DNA of 42,061 bases from a virus: the IMG/VR virus record IMGVR_UViG_3300045911_000295, positions 1 to 42,061 of that record. One strand, 5' to 3'. Position numbers and translations under genes: made by a program. Shown here piece by piece: positions 1-17,158 of the stretch. Below the pieces are notes generated by a model. The model saw only the letters and a program-made list of their open reading frames with translations. It searched no databases and was not told the origin of the DNA. Position 1 is the first letter of the stretch; each line of letters opens with the position of its first letter.

Positions 1-444
1 GGTGGCAGCTTCGGTGGCGGCTTCGGTGGCGCCCCTGGTGGCGGCATCGGTGGCTGCCCAAGTGGCGTCCCAGGTGGCAGCCCTGGTGGCGGCCCTGGTG
101 GCGGCATCCGTGGCGGCATCGGTGGCGGCCCAGGTGGCGGTCCAGATGGCTTCCGTGGTAGCGGCCTCGGTGGCGCCCTCGGTGGCGGCCCTGGCGGCGT
201 CCCTGGTAGCGACCCCGGTGGCGTCCCAAGTGGCGTCACTGGTGGCGGCATGGGTGGCGTCCCAGGTGGCAACTCTGGTGGCGCCCCAGGTGGCAGCCCT
301 GGTAGCGGAATCCGTGGCAGCTTCGGTGGCGGCCTTGGTGGCGGCATCGATGGCAGCCCTGGTGACGGCCATGGTGGCCGCCCTGGTGGCGGCCCAGGTG
401 GCGGCCTCGATGGCGTCCCTGGTGGCGGCCTTGGTGGCGGCCTC
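1..444. repeat. Imperfect 12-bp tandem repeat, 37 units, inside a coding region
   Basis: The plus strand shows GGTGGC followed by a variable hexamer every 12 bases from 1 to 444. It encodes the (A/D)AT-x repeats of the leftward gene. Because 12 is a multiple of 3, gain or loss of units keeps the frame. The array runs off the left edge, so its true length is unknown. Confidence 0.95.
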
Positions 445-699
445 TTTATGCCGATGCCAAATCGCTGCCGCGAACCCACCAGCGAACGTCAGCACGAATG
501 GAGACGGCACGAACACGATCGCCTTGGGTGGTGGTTTTCCTGCAGCGGCATAAAGCCGCCGCACCGCGTCTCGGCAAACATCGCGATCGTGTTCAGTCAT
601 TGCCTCCGTGGACATCGCGTTCGCGATCCACTTGTCAGCCCAGGGCTTCAACTGCGCCCGATGCTCCGGGGTGAGTTCGTATGGCTTTCTGCGCGCCAT
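1..699 (-). CDS. Tetrapeptide-repeat protein with DUF6745-like N-terminus (3' end cut off)
   Basis: The frame reads leftward from the ATG at 699 and is still open at base 1, giving 233 codons with no stop. Residues 1-86 look globular, with Trp20, Trp24 and a 'GKPPPKAIVFVPSPF' segment. From memory this resembles the N-terminal part of DUF6745 proteins; a profile search would settle that. Residues 87-233 are 37 consecutive four-residue units, mostly (A/D/G)-A-T-x with x usually Arg, Trp, Glu or Asp. No signal peptide or membrane segment is seen. The gene follows the 703-1029 gene by 3 bp and is the last visible gene of the leftward early operon. Function is unknown. The repeat could form a long helix with a Thr/Ala stripe or another solenoid. 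The plus-strand reading of the same repeat is open only because the repeat has no stops. Confidence 0.8.
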   Translation of the reverse strand, partial: MARRKPYELTPEHRAQLKPWADKWIANAMSTEAMTEHDRDVCRDAVRRLYAAAGKPPPKAIVFVPSPFVLTFAGGFAAAIWHRHKEAATKAATRDAIEAATWAATRAATMAVTRAAIDAATKAATEAATDSATRAATWGATRVATWDATHAATSDATWDATGVATRDAARAATEGATEAATTEAIWTATWAATDAATDAATRAATRAATWDATWAATDAATRGATEAATEAAT

Positions 700-702
700 G
701 GG

Positions 703-1029
703 TCAGTCCTCCACGCGCCGAATCGCCTTTGGGTGGTATTCCCGCTGACGCCGAACCTCGTAGTAGCCGGGCTGCAGCAGGAGCGTGGTGTGTTCCTGGT
801 GCTCCAGCGATGCGGGGGTGCCGGTGACGGTCAAAAACAGGCCACCGCCGCTGCCGTCTTCCCGGAAGAGTGCCACGTTGTTGGCCAACGCGAAGCTGTG
901 GTGGTGCCCGGTGGCCTCGCCATGCGCGAGGACAAGCCGGCCATTCTCCGCCGGCACGGGCTGAACGCCGTCCGGCAGTGACTCGACGCGACGCAGCACA
1001 ACGTCGCCCTGGCGGATGAGAGTGGTCAT
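703..1029 (-). CDS. Conserved 'RQGDV' protein of unknown function
   Basis: The protein has 108 residues. The start at 1029 is chosen because AGGGA lies 7 bases upstream; longer readings of the frame run back into the antisense of the next gene. It begins with an RQGDVVLRRV motif (residues 6-15), then a histidine-rich 'HGEATGHHHSF' stretch, and ends with a 'PGYYEVRRQREY' segment. From memory, similar small proteins occur in bacteria next to DUF6745 proteins, and here the neighbour 3 bp downstream is DUF6745-like. The pair may therefore be a conserved two-gene unit. It looks like a small beta-rich cytoplasmic protein. No enzymatic role can be assigned from the sequence. Confidence 0.85.
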   Translation of the reverse strand: MTTLIRQGDVVLRRVESLPDGVQPVPAENGRLVLAHGEATGHHHSFALANNVALFREDGSGGGLFLTVTGTPASLEHQEHTTLLLQPGYYEVRRQREYHPKAIRRVED

Positions 1030-1051: not shown

Positions 1052-1720
1052 TCAGTAAACCTGTTGTCCGGCTGGTGTGGTGGCACCATCCTCTCCATCG
1101 CCCTCGTCCTCGTCCTTGGTGCCCCGCGGCTGCGCATCCTCGGGATTGCCCGACTTTGCCCTGCGCCCACCACGCGCCCCACGCCGAGTGCTGACAACCT
1201 CGCGCGGCTTCTTGAGCGCATCGGGTCCCATCTCTCTGGCGATGTGCTCCTGCCCGCGCATGTAGCCGGCATCCCAAGCCACGTAGAGCTCGGAGCCTGG
1301 CGCGTGCGGATTGCTGGCCGTCCGGTGGTCGCCTGCACGACCGGCGTGATATCCTTGCTGGCCGGCGCTCCACAACGCATCCTCGGCGCGCTCCTTCTCG
1401 CTCAGCCCGTCCATTGTCGCCCGCTCGTCTGCGTCGAACAGGTCGAACTGGAGGCCCGAGATCCGGATGCCCGACCAGTGCATGTACTCCACCATGTCGT
1501 ACACCTCGGATGCCACCACATCGGGGTCCTTCTGGCGGGCAGCGATGGCATTCGCCAGCGCTTTAACGTTGAAACCCGCCTTCTTGGCAGCCTTGAACCG
1601 ATGCAGCACCGCGGCATTGGCGCTGTCGCGCTCCTGCTGCAGCTCGATGATCTCGCGCACCGTGGCACGGAACTGCGCCTTGGTTGGTCGATTGGAACCG
1701 GCGTTCAGTCGTTCCGCCAT
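1052..1720 (-). CDS. GapR/DUF2312-like helix fused to RMF-like segment
   Basis: The protein has 222 residues. ATG at 1720 is preferred over TTG at 1729, because GGAG sits 9 bases before the ATG and touches the TTG. Residues 15-65 are a charged helix resembling the GapR/DUF2312 alphaproteobacterial DNA-binding coiled coil ('AAKKAGFNVKALANAIAARQ'). Residues about 117-157 contain GYHAGRAG, a central Asn-Pro and 'YVAWDAGYMRGQ'. This is the spacing of ribosome modulation factor, the small protein that dimerises 100S ribosomes. The C-terminal 50 residues are basic, then acidic and low complexity. Family matches are from recognition, not a search. A link between DNA or replication and host ribosome control is a plausible but untested role. 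Confidence 0.8.
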   Translation of the reverse strand: MAERLNAGSNRPTKAQFRATVREIIELQQERDSANAAVLHRFKAAKKAGFNVKALANAIAARQKDPDVVASEVYDMVEYMHWSGIRISGLQFDLFDADERATMDGLSEKERAEDALWSAGQQGYHAGRAGDHRTASNPHAPGSELYVAWDAGYMRGQEHIAREMGPDALKKPREVVSTRRGARGGRRAKSGNPEDAQPRGTKDEDEGDGEDGATTPAGQQVY

Positions 1721-1784
1721 TGTTGGCAACTCCGTCTTGGTTCAGATTTGCGGCAGCGCCGACCTCGCAAGGAGACCGCGCGTT

Positions 1785-2042
1785 TCAAGCGGGGATCGGC
1801 GCAATCGAGGTGATCGGAGTGATGATCGCCTCGTGGTCGCTGGCCTTCGAGACGAACACCAAAGCGCCGCCGTCCCGGCCCGAAATCATCATGATGTCGC
1901 CCACTTTCAGCAAATCGGCGCATGGATTGAAGAAGCCCGACTTCGCCGCCTCGGACAAATCGAGGGGTCCAAGCTTGTAGTGCCAGAGCGTAAAGCCCTG
2001 CGCATAGGCGAGGACGGAGAGGTTGCGGACGGCGAAAGCCAT
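1785..2042 (-). CDS. Small conserved phage protein (MAFAVRNLSV...)
   Basis: The protein has 85 residues. The start at 2042 is supported by a strong AGGAGG 8 bases upstream; the longer reading from 2087 would begin inside the 3' end of the ATPase gene and lacks such a site. The N-terminal 'AVRNLSVLAYAQGFTLWHYK' and central 'DIMMISGRDGGALVFV' segments suggest a compact alpha/beta fold. I recognise it as a type of small protein often seen in alphaproteobacterial phages and prophages, but no function is known to me. It sits just after the SbcC-like ATPase gene (2 bp gap), so it is co-expressed with the recombination module. Confidence 0.85.
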   Translation of the reverse strand: MAFAVRNLSVLAYAQGFTLWHYKLGPLDLSEAAKSGFFNPCADLLKVGDIMMISGRDGGALVFVSKASDHEAIITPITSIAPIPA

Positions 2043-2044
2043 GG

Positions 2045-3745
2045 TCAGGCTCCTCCTGGTTCGATGAGTTTGCCGGCACCCAGCCACAACGAGCGGCCCA
2101 GTTTGTGAGCGGCTAAGTCGGGCAGCGCGGGCGGCTTGCCTTCGCGCGCCATCATGGCAACGAGCACGGTCATGCCGCTTGCGGCGAGCGTACGGAACAC
2201 GGGCTCGCGCGCCTGCGGGTGCAGCAGATCCAGCCGGTCAACGAGGAACAACTTCGCCCCCTCCTTGACCGCCAGCAAAATCCCCATGGCGAGGTCGGCG
2301 CGCATCTGCTCACTCTCGCTGAGCATGTCGTAGTCACGGCCCGCGTAGCGCAGCGCGCCGGACGTGGTGATCGACACTTCGAGCATGCCGCACCGTTCGG
2401 CGATGGCGCCAAGCTGGACGTTGATATCCGCCATCTTCCGCTCCATGACTGCGGCTCGGATGCCAGACGGTTCCAGAGCTTCGAGGATCGCGCGGCCGCG
2501 CTCCCACTCTTCGTTGATCGCGACCGCGCGCTGCAGCGTCTGAATTGCCTTGCACCGTTCTTCGGCTGCGGTCAGCCTGTTGCGGGCGGCGAGGATGGTC
2601 TCGTGGTCGGGCTCGGGAAGGTCGCGGATCTGTTGCAGCTTCTCCTCGGCTGCCATCGCAGACTGCAACGCTACCTCGGCCTCCGTGCGCTTCTTCATCG
2701 CCGGAATCAGCGCGTCGGTGCATTGTTTGTGCGCGGCGACCAACGCGGCACGAATGGCCAAAGCGTCGTTGTATGCCTGGATCGAAAGCTCCTTGCGGGC
2801 AGGCTTCTCAAGCGTCAGCCCACCTTTGGCGGTGCGCACGATTGCCAAGGGCTTGAGGCACTCCGGGCATTGCGGAAACTTGCGTGGGTCCGTCGGCTCG
2901 GGGTGTTTCTCCAACTCTGCCGTCGCAGCGTCGGCTGCGGCTTGCGCCTCGTCGTACGCGGCTTTCGCCGCTGCCAGTGCCTCCCGCGCCGCCGGCAACT
3001 TTGCCGCCTCCTGTTCGATGATGCGGCGCATCTCTGCTTCGATGGTGGCTTTGGCGAGCGCCTGCGTGAGCGCCTCCTGCGCCGCTTCGACTTCCTTCTG
3101 TGCTGCGGCCAAGTCGTATTCCTCGCCGCGGTGCAAGCCGGCCGGTGCCCACGTCAGCCGAACCGACGAACCCCAAGCCTGTCCGGTCCGTTCGCGCCAC
3201 TGGCCCGTCAGCATCTTGCACGCGCTGTCGACGCGCTTGGCGATGGCGTCCCAGCCGGAGGTGCGAATGTCGTCCCAGAGGGCGTTGGCAGCATCGCTGT
3301 TGGGATCAAGCTGGGCGGCAGAGTGAGTGACGAACCAAGCGTTGAAGTCTTCGCGGGTCGGCGCCGTATTGAACCGCTCGGCCATCTCCTTGGCGCGTTG
3401 CTTCTCGTCCAGCCGCATCCACCGCGCGGCGCCGATGCCAAGGGCAGAGCCGAGGGTGGGAGGTTCACCCTGCTGGTCGATGATGCCGCCTGGGTAGGAG
3501 ATGCGCACCGAGCCCCGTGGGTACTCGAGCAGGATGGAACCGGTGTCAGACCCGTCGCGCGTGAGGCGCGACGTGTCACGCTTCTGTGTCACGCCGCGCA
3601 TCTTCCAGTCCATCAGCGCCGCAGCGGCGACGCACTGCAGGAGAGAAGTTTTTCCGGAGCCGTTCAGGCCGCCCACCAGCACTTGGCCGTCGAGATTGAT
3701 ATCGACGTACTCGAGGCCCAAGACGTTGCGGATGCGAAGGTGCAT
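2045..3745 (-). CDS. SbcC/Rad50-like ABC ATPase of the recombination module
   Basis: The protein has 566 residues. The Walker A motif GLNGSGKT is at residues 26-33. Two alanine-rich coiled-coil stretches (about 210-285 and 330-440) flank a zinc-hook-like CPEC at 293-296. A signature-like LSESEQ is at 475-480, and a Walker-B-like LVDRLD at 501-506. This is the layout of Rad50/SbcC-type SMC ATPases, which hold DNA ends and license a partner nuclease. Family members usually end Walker B with Asp-Glu; here the second residue is Arg. No SbcD/Mre11 phosphoesterase gene is nearby, and the visible nuclease partner is the PD-(D/E)XK protein at 4894-5751. The start follows the previous stop by 6 bp, and the TAG region carries a weak purine-rich site. 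Confidence 0.9.
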   Translation of the reverse strand: MHLRIRNVLGLEYVDINLDGQVLVGGLNGSGKTSLLQCVAAAALMDWKMRGVTQKRDTSRLTRDGSDTGSILLEYPRGSVRISYPGGIIDQQGEPPTLGSALGIGAARWMRLDEKQRAKEMAERFNTAPTREDFNAWFVTHSAAQLDPNSDAANALWDDIRTSGWDAIAKRVDSACKMLTGQWRERTGQAWGSSVRLTWAPAGLHRGEEYDLAAAQKEVEAAQEALTQALAKATIEAEMRRIIEQEAAKLPAAREALAAAKAAYDEAQAAADAATAELEKHPEPTDPRKFPQCPECLKPLAIVRTAKGGLTLEKPARKELSIQAYNDALAIRAALVAAHKQCTDALIPAMKKRTEAEVALQSAMAAEEKLQQIRDLPEPDHETILAARNRLTAAEERCKAIQTLQRAVAINEEWERGRAILEALEPSGIRAAVMERKMADINVQLGAIAERCGMLEVSITTSGALRYAGRDYDMLSESEQMRADLAMGILLAVKEGAKLFLVDRLDLLHPQAREPVFRTLAASGMTVLVAMMAREGKPPALPDLAAHKLGRSLWLGAGKLIEPGGA

Positions 3746-3751
3746 GCGGCC

Positions 3752-4786
3752 CTATTCCCCGCCGAACGACATGTCGTCTTGATCAGCCTTCGGCGGCTCG
3801 ATTTGCTTCCGGCCCGTATCTTCGGCCGATGGAGGCTGCTCATGCGCGGCCTGCGGCGGCTGGGCGGCTGCCTTCGGCACGGGCGCGGCCTTGGGCTCGC
3901 GGCGCTGTTCCTGGTTGTCGTCTGCGCCTTCACGATTGTCGTCCGCCTGCTCCGTGGTGGGGAACAGGTCATCGGCGGTCGCGAAATTGTCCTCGATCGA
4001 CCGCAGGCGCGCGGCGGCTGTGGCAATGTCGGTCACGGTCCAGCGGTCGATGGGCCGACCGATGACGCGCTCGATGCGGCTACCGTCAATCCCAAGCTTG
4101 TTGGCGAGCTTGATGCACCCAGCCTTGGCCTTGGCGGGGTCCTTTTCGATCACTGCCAGCAGGCCGCGCTTGGCCTCCTCCACCGCAAAGTCGGTCAGGT
4201 CGCCAAGAGCGGCGCGGATCACGTTGCGCAGCGCCTTCGACTGCGCAATCTGGAACACCATGTCGGACGCACGGTCCACGTCCTTCATGCCGACGTTCTG
4301 GTTCTTGCGCTGCTGGAACTGCCGCACGAGCGTGAAGCCCGTTTCGTAGTCGACAAATTCGGCCGCCATGGTCCAGTGGGTTGGCGTTTCGTTGGCCACG
4401 ATGCAGCGCACGGCGCAGTTGCCGTAGATGCGCGCCACTGCCATTGCACCGGTGATCGACACGCCCTCGACCACATCCTTGGTGCCGGCGCGGCGGTTGT
4501 TCACTTCCCAGCGGTAGAAGAAATCGCTGCCTGCCGACTGCGCGGCCAAGCCGATACTGCGGCGGATTTCGCCCTGGTTCCGTTTGATCGCCACCCGCTG
4601 CGCGGTGACGATCTGCGCGAGTGCGCGGTCGGTGGCTTGGCCACCGGCCGGGTACGCCGCCGGCATGATCGGCATGGGCAATGCATCTCCGTCGATCACC
4701 ATGCCGCCTAGGCCACCGGCGGCCCACGGATCATCGGGCGTCGACACGGTTGCCGGTGCCGCGCCGCGAGTGCGAGCGCCGCTCAC
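3752..4786 (-). CDS. Candidate phage recombination protein (single-strand annealing type)
   Basis: The protein has 344 residues and starts at GTG 4786. AAGGTGG lies 4 bases upstream, and the GTG overlaps the stop of the upstream micro-ORF as GTGA. The conserved core is residues about 60-220, with 'RWEVNN', 'VEGVSITGAMAVARIYGN', a tyrosine/threonine strand 'DYETGFT' and 'QSKALRNVIRAALGD'. The last 90 residues are Gln/Pro/charged and probably disordered. A 'VEG-SI' core followed by 'K-LRN-I' is typical of a phage family found beside exonucleases. Its position between a Cas4/RecB-type nuclease and an SbcC-like ATPase fits a RecT/Erf-like annealing protein. That assignment is contextual; a structure prediction compared with Redbeta/RecT would test it. 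Confidence 0.7.
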   Translation of the reverse strand: MSGARTRGAAPATVSTPDDPWAAGGLGGMVIDGDALPMPIMPAAYPAGGQATDRALAQIVTAQRVAIKRNQGEIRRSIGLAAQSAGSDFFYRWEVNNRRAGTKDVVEGVSITGAMAVARIYGNCAVRCIVANETPTHWTMAAEFVDYETGFTLVRQFQQRKNQNVGMKDVDRASDMVFQIAQSKALRNVIRAALGDLTDFAVEEAKRGLLAVIEKDPAKAKAGCIKLANKLGIDGSRIERVIGRPIDRWTVTDIATAAARLRSIEDNFATADDLFPTTEQADDNREGADDNQEQRREPKAAPVPKAAAQPPQAAHEQPPSAEDTGRKQIEPPKADQDDMSFGGE

Positions 4787-4893: not shown

Positions 4894-5751
4894 TCAGGCG
4901 TGGGCGCGGCAGAACTTCGTGCCCCACGCTGGGCACCATCGCTCGCCGCAAAGCGATGAAGCTGGGTTTGGCAGGAAGGCGCCGAGCGGATCGTCGCCAT
5001 GGGGATCGGCCAACCGCGCCTCAAACTCGCTGGCGGATCGCTTGATGGCGGAGATGACGTTCCAGGCGCCGCGGACAGCCTCGCCGCGGTCAACCTCAAC
5101 TGTGAGCGGCGGCGGCTGCTCGCTCTTGATCGACACCCGTCGAATGAAATCCTCGTGGAGTTCCGGCACCCGGTAGCCGTGCGCTTCGAACACGATCGCA
5201 TAGGCGCCGTACTGGACGCCGTTCGCGCGCCGCACGGTCCCGGTCTTGTTGTCGCGCAGTCCCTCGTCGGGGTTCCCGGTGAGGAGGTCGGCCTGGCCGG
5301 ACACCAGCCAGCCATCGCCGACATCGGCCACCAGCCGCTCCTCAACGATCAGCGGGGTCACGGTCGGCGCAAGGTGGCGACGGTAGGTGCGCACCATGCG
5401 CGCGGCCTGTTGCTTGGCAATGGGAATGTTCGCGGAGGTCTCATCCCAGGTAACGCCGTTCTGGGTTTGCTCGATCAGTGCCATCTCGGCGCGGTTCTCG
5501 GCCTCCGTCTCATTGCCGAGCGTGCCGCTGGTGCGCTTCGTCTGAAGCGTGTAGGCGATGCCAGCGTGAACGGCTGTCCCGACGGCGGCGCCGATGTGGC
5601 GCGGTCGCGGAGGCGCAAGTTGGAAGCCGGCCGCCGTCACCATGTCAACCAGGTGACGAGCAGCAAACCGTCGCGGGCAATCCAGGTACGTCGTCAAACT
5701 GGACGGCCGGATGAGCCCCTTGCGGCTCTCCACCTGTTCTGCGTCACTCAT
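4894..5751 (-). CDS. PD-(D/E)XK nuclease with Cas4/AddB-type Fe-S cysteine set
   Basis: The protein has 285 residues. Motifs in order: Cys25 in 'LDCPRRF', His62 in 'GTAVHAG', Glu137, Asp155 in 'SGQADLL', Asp167-Asn-Lys169 in 'RDNKTG', and Gln180 in 'QYGAYA'. Three cysteines follow at 268, 273 and 281. The H...D...DxK...QxxxY order is the RecB/Cas4-like PD-(D/E)XK nuclease core. One early and three late cysteines are the arrangement that binds a 4Fe-4S cluster in Cas4 and AddB. It would resect DNA ends, giving the 3' single strands that an annealing protein uses. Its start overlaps the upstream gene's end by 8 bp. There are no cas genes or CRISPR repeats nearby, so a recombination role is preferred over spacer acquisition. 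Confidence 0.88.
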   Translation of the reverse strand: MSDAEQVESRKGLIRPSSLTTYLDCPRRFAARHLVDMVTAAGFQLAPPRPRHIGAAVGTAVHAGIAYTLQTKRTSGTLGNETEAENRAEMALIEQTQNGVTWDETSANIPIAKQQAARMVRTYRRHLAPTVTPLIVEERLVADVGDGWLVSGQADLLTGNPDEGLRDNKTGTVRRANGVQYGAYAIVFEAHGYRVPELHEDFIRRVSIKSEQPPPLTVEVDRGEAVRGAWNVISAIKRSASEFEARLADPHGDDPLGAFLPNPASSLCGERWCPAWGTKFCRAHA

Positions 5752-16165: not shown

Positions 16166-17158
16166 TCAGGATGGTGGAGCCGCCCAACCAAAGATGCCCC
16201 TGACCGTCACACTGTCGGGCAGGGATTTCAGCGAGGTGCAGCCGCCGAGCCGGAGGTAGCCTCCAACCGTCAGGTTTTCGGGGAGGCTCGCGAGCGAGGT
16301 GCAGTCAGACAGGTCGAGGTCGCCCGCAACCTCCAGGTTCTCGGGGAGGCTCGCCAGCGAGGTGCAGCGGCTGAGCCACAGATCGCCTGCAACCGTCAGC
16401 CCGTTGGGGAGGGCCGTCAGCGCGGTGCAGTCAGTGAGGTAGACGTTACCTCGGACCATCAGCCCCTCTGCCACGGTCTCCAGTGCGGTGCAGCGGCGGA
16501 CGTGGAGACTATGCCGCACATCCAGCCCCTCGGGCAGGGATTTCAGCGAGGTGCAGCGGCTGAGGTAGAGGTTGCCACCGACCACCAGCCCCTTGGGAAG
16601 GCTTTCCAGCGCCGTGCAATGGCTGAGGTGAAGGTCTCTCGGAACCATCAAATCCTTGGGCAGCGTAGTCAGCGCCGTGCAGCCGCCGAGGTAGAGACTG
16701 CGCCCGATCAGCAGGCTTTCGGGCAGAGACGTCAGCGCGGTGCAGTCGGCGAGATCGAGATCGCCTCCGACCATCAGCCTGTCGGGCAGGGATTTCAGGG
16801 AGGTGCAATGGCTGAGATAGAGGTGTCCTGCGACCAGCAGCCTGTTGGGGAGGCTCTCCAATGCGGTGCAACCGTCGAGCAGGAGATTATCTCGGACCAG
16901 GAGCCCTTCGGGCAGAGACGTCAGCGCGGTGCAGCCGCGCAGGTCGATGCATCCTCCGACCGTCAGCCTGTTGGGCAGGCTCGTCAGAGCGGTGCATTCG
17001 GCGAGGTTGAGATCGCGCCCGACCGTCAGTCCCTCGGGCAGGCTCGTCAGCGCGGTGCAGCCGCTGAGGTCGAGATGCCCATCCACGCGGAGTCCCCGCG
17101 CTGCCATCAGGTCTTCGATCGACATGGATCGACCATCGATCGTGATCATGTACGTCAT
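16166..17158 (-). CDS. Long LRR-type solenoid protein (14 repeats, no C-terminal tail)
   Basis: The protein has 330 residues. The N-cap 'MITIDGRSMSIEDLMAARG' is followed by 14 successive 21-residue repeats close to LxVGGxLxLSxCTALxSLPxG, then a short end 'RGIFGWAAPPS'. Cysteine is kept at the same position in every repeat. The C-terminal 'IAGCRNF' tail found in its two paralogues is missing. Either it was lost or this protein represents a tail-less form. Surface positions of the solenoid vary between repeats while Leu, Cys and Pro are fixed, as expected for a binding scaffold. It is probably cytoplasmic and protein-binding; the target is unknown. Confidence 0.88.
   Translation of the reverse strand: MTYMITIDGRSMSIEDLMAARGLRVDGHLDLSGCTALTSLPEGLTVGRDLNLAECTALTSLPNRLTVGGCIDLRGCTALTSLPEGLLVRDNLLLDGCTALESLPNRLLVAGHLYLSHCTSLKSLPDRLMVGGDLDLADCTALTSLPESLLIGRSLYLGGCTALTTLPKDLMVPRDLHLSHCTALESLPKGLVVGGNLYLSRCTSLKSLPEGLDVRHSLHVRRCTALETVAEGLMVRGNVYLTDCTALTALPNGLTVAGDLWLSRCTSLASLPENLEVAGDLDLSDCTSLASLPENLTVGGYLRLGGCTSLKSLPDSVTVRGIFGWAAPPS

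Follow-up and report, generated by a model that had tools for sequence, protein, structure and literature searches.

Does a phage protein that resembles both a nucleoid-associated protein and a ribosome hibernation factor act on DNA, on ribosomes or on both? GapR (UPF0335/DUF2312, Pfam accession PF10073) is a nucleoid-associated protein of Alphaproteobacteria and many phages that forms a tetrameric ring around overtwisted DNA, and the ribosome modulation factor RMF forms 100S ribosomes. A first-pass annotation of a 42,061-nt viral sequence (IMG/VR record IMGVR_UViG_3300045911_000295, positions 1 to 42,061; hereafter the window) proposed that one of its genes fuses segments of these two types into a host-takeover factor touching both DNA topology and ribosome hibernation. 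We asked whether the two-part composition is real, how widely it occurs and which function it best fits.

A phage gene combining GapR-like and RMF-like segments

The open reading frame lies exactly where it had been annotated, on the minus strand, and its GC content by codon position (0.70/0.49/0.77) is coding-like (Table 1). For the early expression that had also been proposed, a promoter search gave one promoter-like match, with 0.6 expected by chance. Pfam identifies two families only in the encoded protein: GapR_DNA-bd (PF10073) at residues 14-71, just over its cut-off (23.0 versus 22.6 bits, E=6e-5; 25.0 bits in a six-frame search), and RMF (PF04957) at residues 110-158, 3.3 bits below its cut-off (24.6 versus 27.9 bits, E=2.6e-5). 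Comparison with the DUF2312 and RMF models thus bears out the first assignment at threshold and leaves the second short of it. NCBIfam returns the same two names with weak scores, and GapR chains rank first in a sequence search of the PDB, at a weak E of about 0.1.

Relatives with the same two-part layout exist (see below), so that the match is more than chance, and we consider the GapR-like and RMF-fold composition of this polypeptide very probably real. The presence of a GapR-like coiled coil and an RMF-like segment in one protein is borne out by Pfam, hhalign, the predicted fold and the recurrence of the family. The outcome that would have spoken against it, neither family over threshold and neither fold predicted, did not arise, since GapR passes and an RMF fold is predicted.

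Table 1. Features of the fusion gene and its neighbourhood, with positions in the window
Feature	Positions	Strand	Details and evidence
GapR-like/RMF-fold fusion protein gene (P0001)	1052..1720	-	222 aa + stop; ATG at 1720
GGAG, likely ribosome-binding site	1730..1733	-	9 nt 5' of ATG, read from sequence
GapR-like domain, residues 14-82	1475..1681	-	motif AKKAGFNVKAL...RQKD; Pfam PF10073, hhalign with controls, AlphaFold2
RMF-fold helical hairpin, residues 108-165	1226..1399	-	GYHAGRAG...NP...W..GY; Pfam PF04957, Foldseek
Disordered tail, residues 172-222	1055..1207	-	basic stretch KPREVVSTRRGARGGRRAKSG, then acidic stretch; low pLDDT
phrog_27831 protein, 108 aa, downstream neighbour	703..1029	-	E=1.4e-16
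phrog_18004 small protein, upstream neighbour	1785..2042	-	E=2.3e-5
SbcC/RecF-like coiled-coil ATPase	2045..3745	-	phrog_77 + AAA_23
phrog_3657 protein	3752..4786	-	E=1.7e-32
PD-(D/E)XK (RecB/Cas4-type) exonuclease	4894..5751	-	PF12705 E=5e-14; phrog_69 exonuclease

The fusion protein belongs to an undescribed phage family

The fusion protein belongs to an undescribed phage protein family that occurs in a dozen or so unrelated phages. We identified at least 12 relatives in IMG/VR that have the N-terminal helical domain, the RMF-like hairpin and the basic tail and are 26-35% identical to the window protein; this fixed architecture is found in at least 13 phage records. The family alignment used throughout comprises the window protein and the 12 relatives (n=13). 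Pairwise identities between family members range from 19% to 91%. Two relatives lie beyond the 12 that were aligned, one full length and divergent (L154) and one with an in-frame internal deletion (L153). In the latter, the deletion removes everything between mid-helix 2 in the GapR-like part and the centre of the RMF fold and leaves a 138-codon open frame (L153:4271-4687, minus strand). A literature search returned no paper that treats either a fusion of GapR with RMF or the RMF/CrpP proteins of phages.

These relatives surfaced only when the RMF part was searched for as a degenerate DNA pattern, which yielded two contigs with open reading frames matching the window protein in length and layout that were used as seeds. 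The window protein itself drew no tblastn match among 50,697 phage and 72,556 plasmid records, and a related-locus search with it as the single query found none. Four relatives used as queries against the phage collection gave weak partial matches at most. One was to a protein of a Yersinia phage (E=0.3). In another, the N-terminal domain of the divergent relative L134 weakly matched the 101-aa gp41 of Mycobacterium phage Amelie (L151:2989-3294; E=0.02), which is encoded next to an excisionase gene. Strict patterns, which prophage members could escape, were applied in two scans to 84,980 bacterial and archaeal species and yielded no confirmed relative. No homologue of the window's portal was detected in the relatives' phages, which is weak evidence given that some records are fragments.

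A degenerate pattern based on the GapR core matched at least 119 viral DNA stretches, and an in-frame RMF part was absent from all 119 GapR-pattern viral contigs among the matches listed, on which ground we rejected ordinary phage GapR as the source of the architecture. A second, stand-alone GapR or RMF gene was looked for in the window and in the relatives' records and was not found.

The N-terminal domain resembles GapR and keeps part of its DNA-contact surface

AlphaFold2 predicts, with good confidence, helices at residues 14-47, 52-63 and 66-82, an order (long H1, short H2 and H3) as in GapR. Alignment of the family's N-terminal region to 14 phage GapR sequences by hhalign gave a probability of 97% over about 80 columns (score 57.6) and, with the window protein removed, 88% (E=3e-6, score 35.2), whereas reversed and 60 column-shuffled GapR profiles failed, scoring about 10-18 (maximum 18). 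The 13-member profile, searched against the whole PDB, retrieves the GapR chains 6cfx, 6cg8, 6jyk and 6ozx together with the RMF chains 2jrm, 6h4n and 4v8g, with weak E-values that span 0.01-0.4 across both sets. RelI (9sdc), which appeared near the GapR matches, was set aside as part of a mycobacterial toxin-antitoxin pair.

Other searches returned less. The PF10073 cut-off is passed by one of the 13 members, the window protein, and by none of the 12 relatives; weak GapR matches also turn up in unrelated control genomes; the NCBIfam GapR equivalog (NF052541) scores 16 bits against a cut-off of 140; and Foldseek did not retrieve GapR with the predicted N-terminal model.

GapR contacts DNA through K34, K42, K49, K56, K59, R63 and K66 (PMC8510090, PMC7498317), and its D68 and Y82 provide the H3 N-cap and the core of the tetramer interface, respectively (PMC7498317). 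The transfer of this numbering is our own mapping, made by aligning the AK..GF[DN].K motif without gaps. The contact positions in the window protein read R, L, K, K, A, A and Q, so that three of seven are kept and K42, K59, R63 and K66 are lost; relatives keep about one to five. K49 and D68 are present in all 13 members and Y82 in 12. Among 114 phage GapR sequences, K34, K42, K59 and K66 are basic in 81-98% and R63 in 43% (K49, K56 and R65 are fixed in this set by the search pattern). A role in DNA topology, as first proposed, stays possible and is weakened by this partial retention of contacts.

The fusion protein is like GapR in its predicted three-helix N-terminal region, its AK..G[FI][DN] turn, its equivalents of D68 and Y82 and its profile score over the cut-off. 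It is unlike stand-alone GapR, a protein of about 80-100 aa with seven basic DNA contacts, in its reduced contact set and in the added RMF fold and tail. A separate group of phage GapR proteins (L011, L012, L030, L066, L077, L098, L102 and L111) is 240-320 aa long, with a long C-terminal extension that ends in a Cys/His-rich motif (for example NPEACGGYGDKHCHGCTVAMRE) and may represent a zinc-binding GapR variant.

The RMF fold is conserved without its ribosome contacts

The predicted hairpin consists of helices at residues 108-128 and 144-164, and its best two PDB matches in Foldseek are both RMF: the NMR structure 2jrm (TM 0.69 on target, rmsd 2.9, E 0.35) and 9iot_y, a chain of the hibernating E. 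coli ribosome (TM 0.73, rmsd 1.3, E 0.71), with Foldseek probabilities of 0.97-0.99. The weak E-values are expected because the target has only 55 residues. Pfam RMF matches 10 of the 13 family members, and its cut-off is reached by no relative. Core residues A12, G16, G20, G23 and W40 are present in all 13 aligned members, and the window protein retains A12, G16, A19, G20, G23, P30 and W40, with W44 replaced by Tyr.

Ribosome binding and dimerisation by RMF are reported to need R3, K5, R11, R45 and C29, and replacing individual conserved RMF residues by alanine largely abolishes 100S formation (PMC8126665). The equivalents in the window protein are E, A, S, M and N. C29 is Asn in all 13 members, and at most one of R3, K5, R11 and R45 is kept in any of them. 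The net charge of the domain is -3 in the window protein and -8 to +3 across the family, mostly acidic, compared to +7 for E. coli RMF. The hairpin thus shares the two-helix form and the GYxAGxxG...P...W core of RMF (PF04957, E. coli rmf) and differs in being embedded in a larger protein, in charge and in the missing contact residues, which make ribosome hibernation unlikely.

A library of viral structures (BFVD) contains RMF-like hairpins in many small phage proteins. The hairpin being common in phages, its presence alone says little about ribosomes. Phage Rmf/CrpP-fold proteins (NF041887, phrog_13106; BFVD entries from, for example, Caulobacter phages CcrBL9 and CcrSC) have the same hairpin and, unlike the fusion protein, are stand-alone proteins of 44-60 aa in many phages; the window protein scores 13.6 bits with NF041887 (equivalog cut-off 40). 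The sole BFVD match with E<0.001 is A0A6J5QP74, an uncharacterised 212-aa protein of an uncultured Caudovirales phage, which spans the whole protein (E=1.7e-6, 231 columns) at 21% identity and a whole-length TM of only 0.38, so its domain arrangement may differ.

Basic tails recall AT-hooks in part of the family

A GR[PKR] basic core occurs in 11 of the 13 tails and RGRP, an AT-hook-like core, in 6 of 13, compared to means of 0.9 and 0.06, respectively, in 2000 composition-preserving shuffles, figures that overstate the difference somewhat in that the 13 members are not independent. Pfam AT_hook (PF02178) matches three members, weakly. The window protein's own tail lacks RGRP and has RRGARGGRR; its basic stretch, RRGARGGRRAKSG, is followed by the acidic one, for a net charge of 0, so the AT-hook reading is weaker for this protein.

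DNA-metabolism genes predominate among the annotated neighbours

The fusion gene sits in a contiguous leftward block, after the genes for the exonuclease, the phrog_3657 protein, the SbcC/RecF-like ATPase and the small protein; primase/helicase, terminase, P22-like portal and capsid genes are found elsewhere in the window. In the relatives, for which selected neighbours were scanned, most of those that could be annotated belong to DNA metabolism: primase/helicase (L137), helicase (L142), endonuclease/resolvase-like (L145), RuvC-like and RecT-like (L141), RuvC-like (L148), and ParB-like, helicase and DNA methyltransferase (L139). Some of the scanned neighbours are terminase, head-tail or antirepressor genes, and several have no known function.

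Two other loci in the window are unusual. An open reading frame at 1-699 (minus strand), cut by the window edge, has a phage-like start, MARRKPYELTPEHRAQLKPW, followed by a long 12/60-bp tandem repeat; the repeat (13-442) comprises about 36 copies of 12 bp and encodes degenerate ATxAAT-type repeats. The protein encoded at 16166-17158 (minus strand) matches the LRR_EndoS Pfam model (E=1.3e-9), which is unusual in a phage; no stretch of the match passes alone, so it probably reflects repeats.

Candidate functions

The reading that we favour, and to which we would give an about even chance, is that the fusion protein oligomerises, associates with DNA and assists the phage replication/recombination module as an accessory factor, rather than acting in ribosome hibernation. 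The long GapR-like helix would pair into a coiled-coil dimer and perhaps further into a dimer of dimers, and duplex DNA would be held by the basic tail together with what is left of the coil's basic face. With its ribosome-contact residues gone, the RMF fold could then act in protein interaction or as an adaptor, a compact module recruiting an exonuclease, annealing protein, resolvase or helicase to the bound DNA. A family with a fixed layout, both domains by Pfam, GapR homology with K49, D68 and Y82 retained, an RMF core conserved without its ribosome contacts, AT-hook-like tails and DNA-metabolism neighbours all point in this direction. Weighing against it are the loss of four of seven GapR DNA contacts, a window tail with an acidic end and no RGRP, the failure of Foldseek to return GapR and the weakness of neighbourhood inference in compact phage genomes. 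A more specific proposal, which we regard as possible and rather doubtful, is that the RMF fold was taken from translation and built into a GapR-like protein that would encircle or bridge DNA and aid phage replication or recombination where the DNA is topologically stressed, with the hairpin as adaptor to a DNA-metabolism partner.

The AT-hook-like tails would also suit a protein that binds DNA to regulate the transcription of phage or host genes or to silence them in a nucleoid-like manner, with oligomerisation through the coil and binding of AT-rich minor grooves through the tail, as in GapR and H-NS-type proteins. In four relatives (L141, L142, L145 and L148) the gene does lie near the start of a rightward block beside leftward genes. 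The window gene, however, is inside a long gene block and not at a divergent promoter, and Pfam finds no helix-turn-helix or other regulator domain, so that such a role appears unlikely.

Retention of the interface-type residues D68 and Y82, together with loss of K42, K59, R63 and K66 in the window protein and their reduction in most relatives, is the pattern that a dominant-negative or mixed-oligomer partner of host GapR might display. Such a protein would insert into host oligomers and alter or poison them, freeing gyrase-dependent steps or stopping host replication, and the abundance of GapR in phages (at least 119 stretches) indicates that phages exploit the fold. We nonetheless consider this quite unlikely: the host may lack GapR, the coil has diverged enough to make mixed coils doubtful, and the RMF fold and basic tail are left unexplained.

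It is likewise quite unlikely that the GapR likeness is only that of a generic coiled coil, in which case the RMF fold of this phage protein would have been joined to a coil unrelated to GapR. The single Pfam pass among 13 members, the weak matches in control genomes and the Foldseek miss would fit that explanation, but the similarity extends beyond the coil into the loop and H2 (AK..G[FI][DN]..AL...D), the hhalign match survives removal of the window protein while its shuffled and reversed controls fail, and a PDB search with the family profile brings up several GapR chains. Finally, the host-takeover factor of the original proposal, binding DNA and driving hibernation through its RMF-like segment, is highly improbable: the RMF profile match and top-ranked RMF structures favour it, but the residues reported as needed for ribosome binding and dimerisation are largely gone across the family, the domain tends to be acidic and most annotated neighbours serve DNA metabolism.

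Implications

An undescribed phage family thus joins two well-studied bacterial folds, those of GapR and RMF. The retention of fold and core in the absence of ribosome contacts indicates that an RMF-like match in a phage is not necessarily a sign of ribosome hibernation and cautions against labelling such phage genes 'ribosome modulation factor'. The fusion protein also provides an easily expressed test case for GapR-type coils in phage recombination modules.
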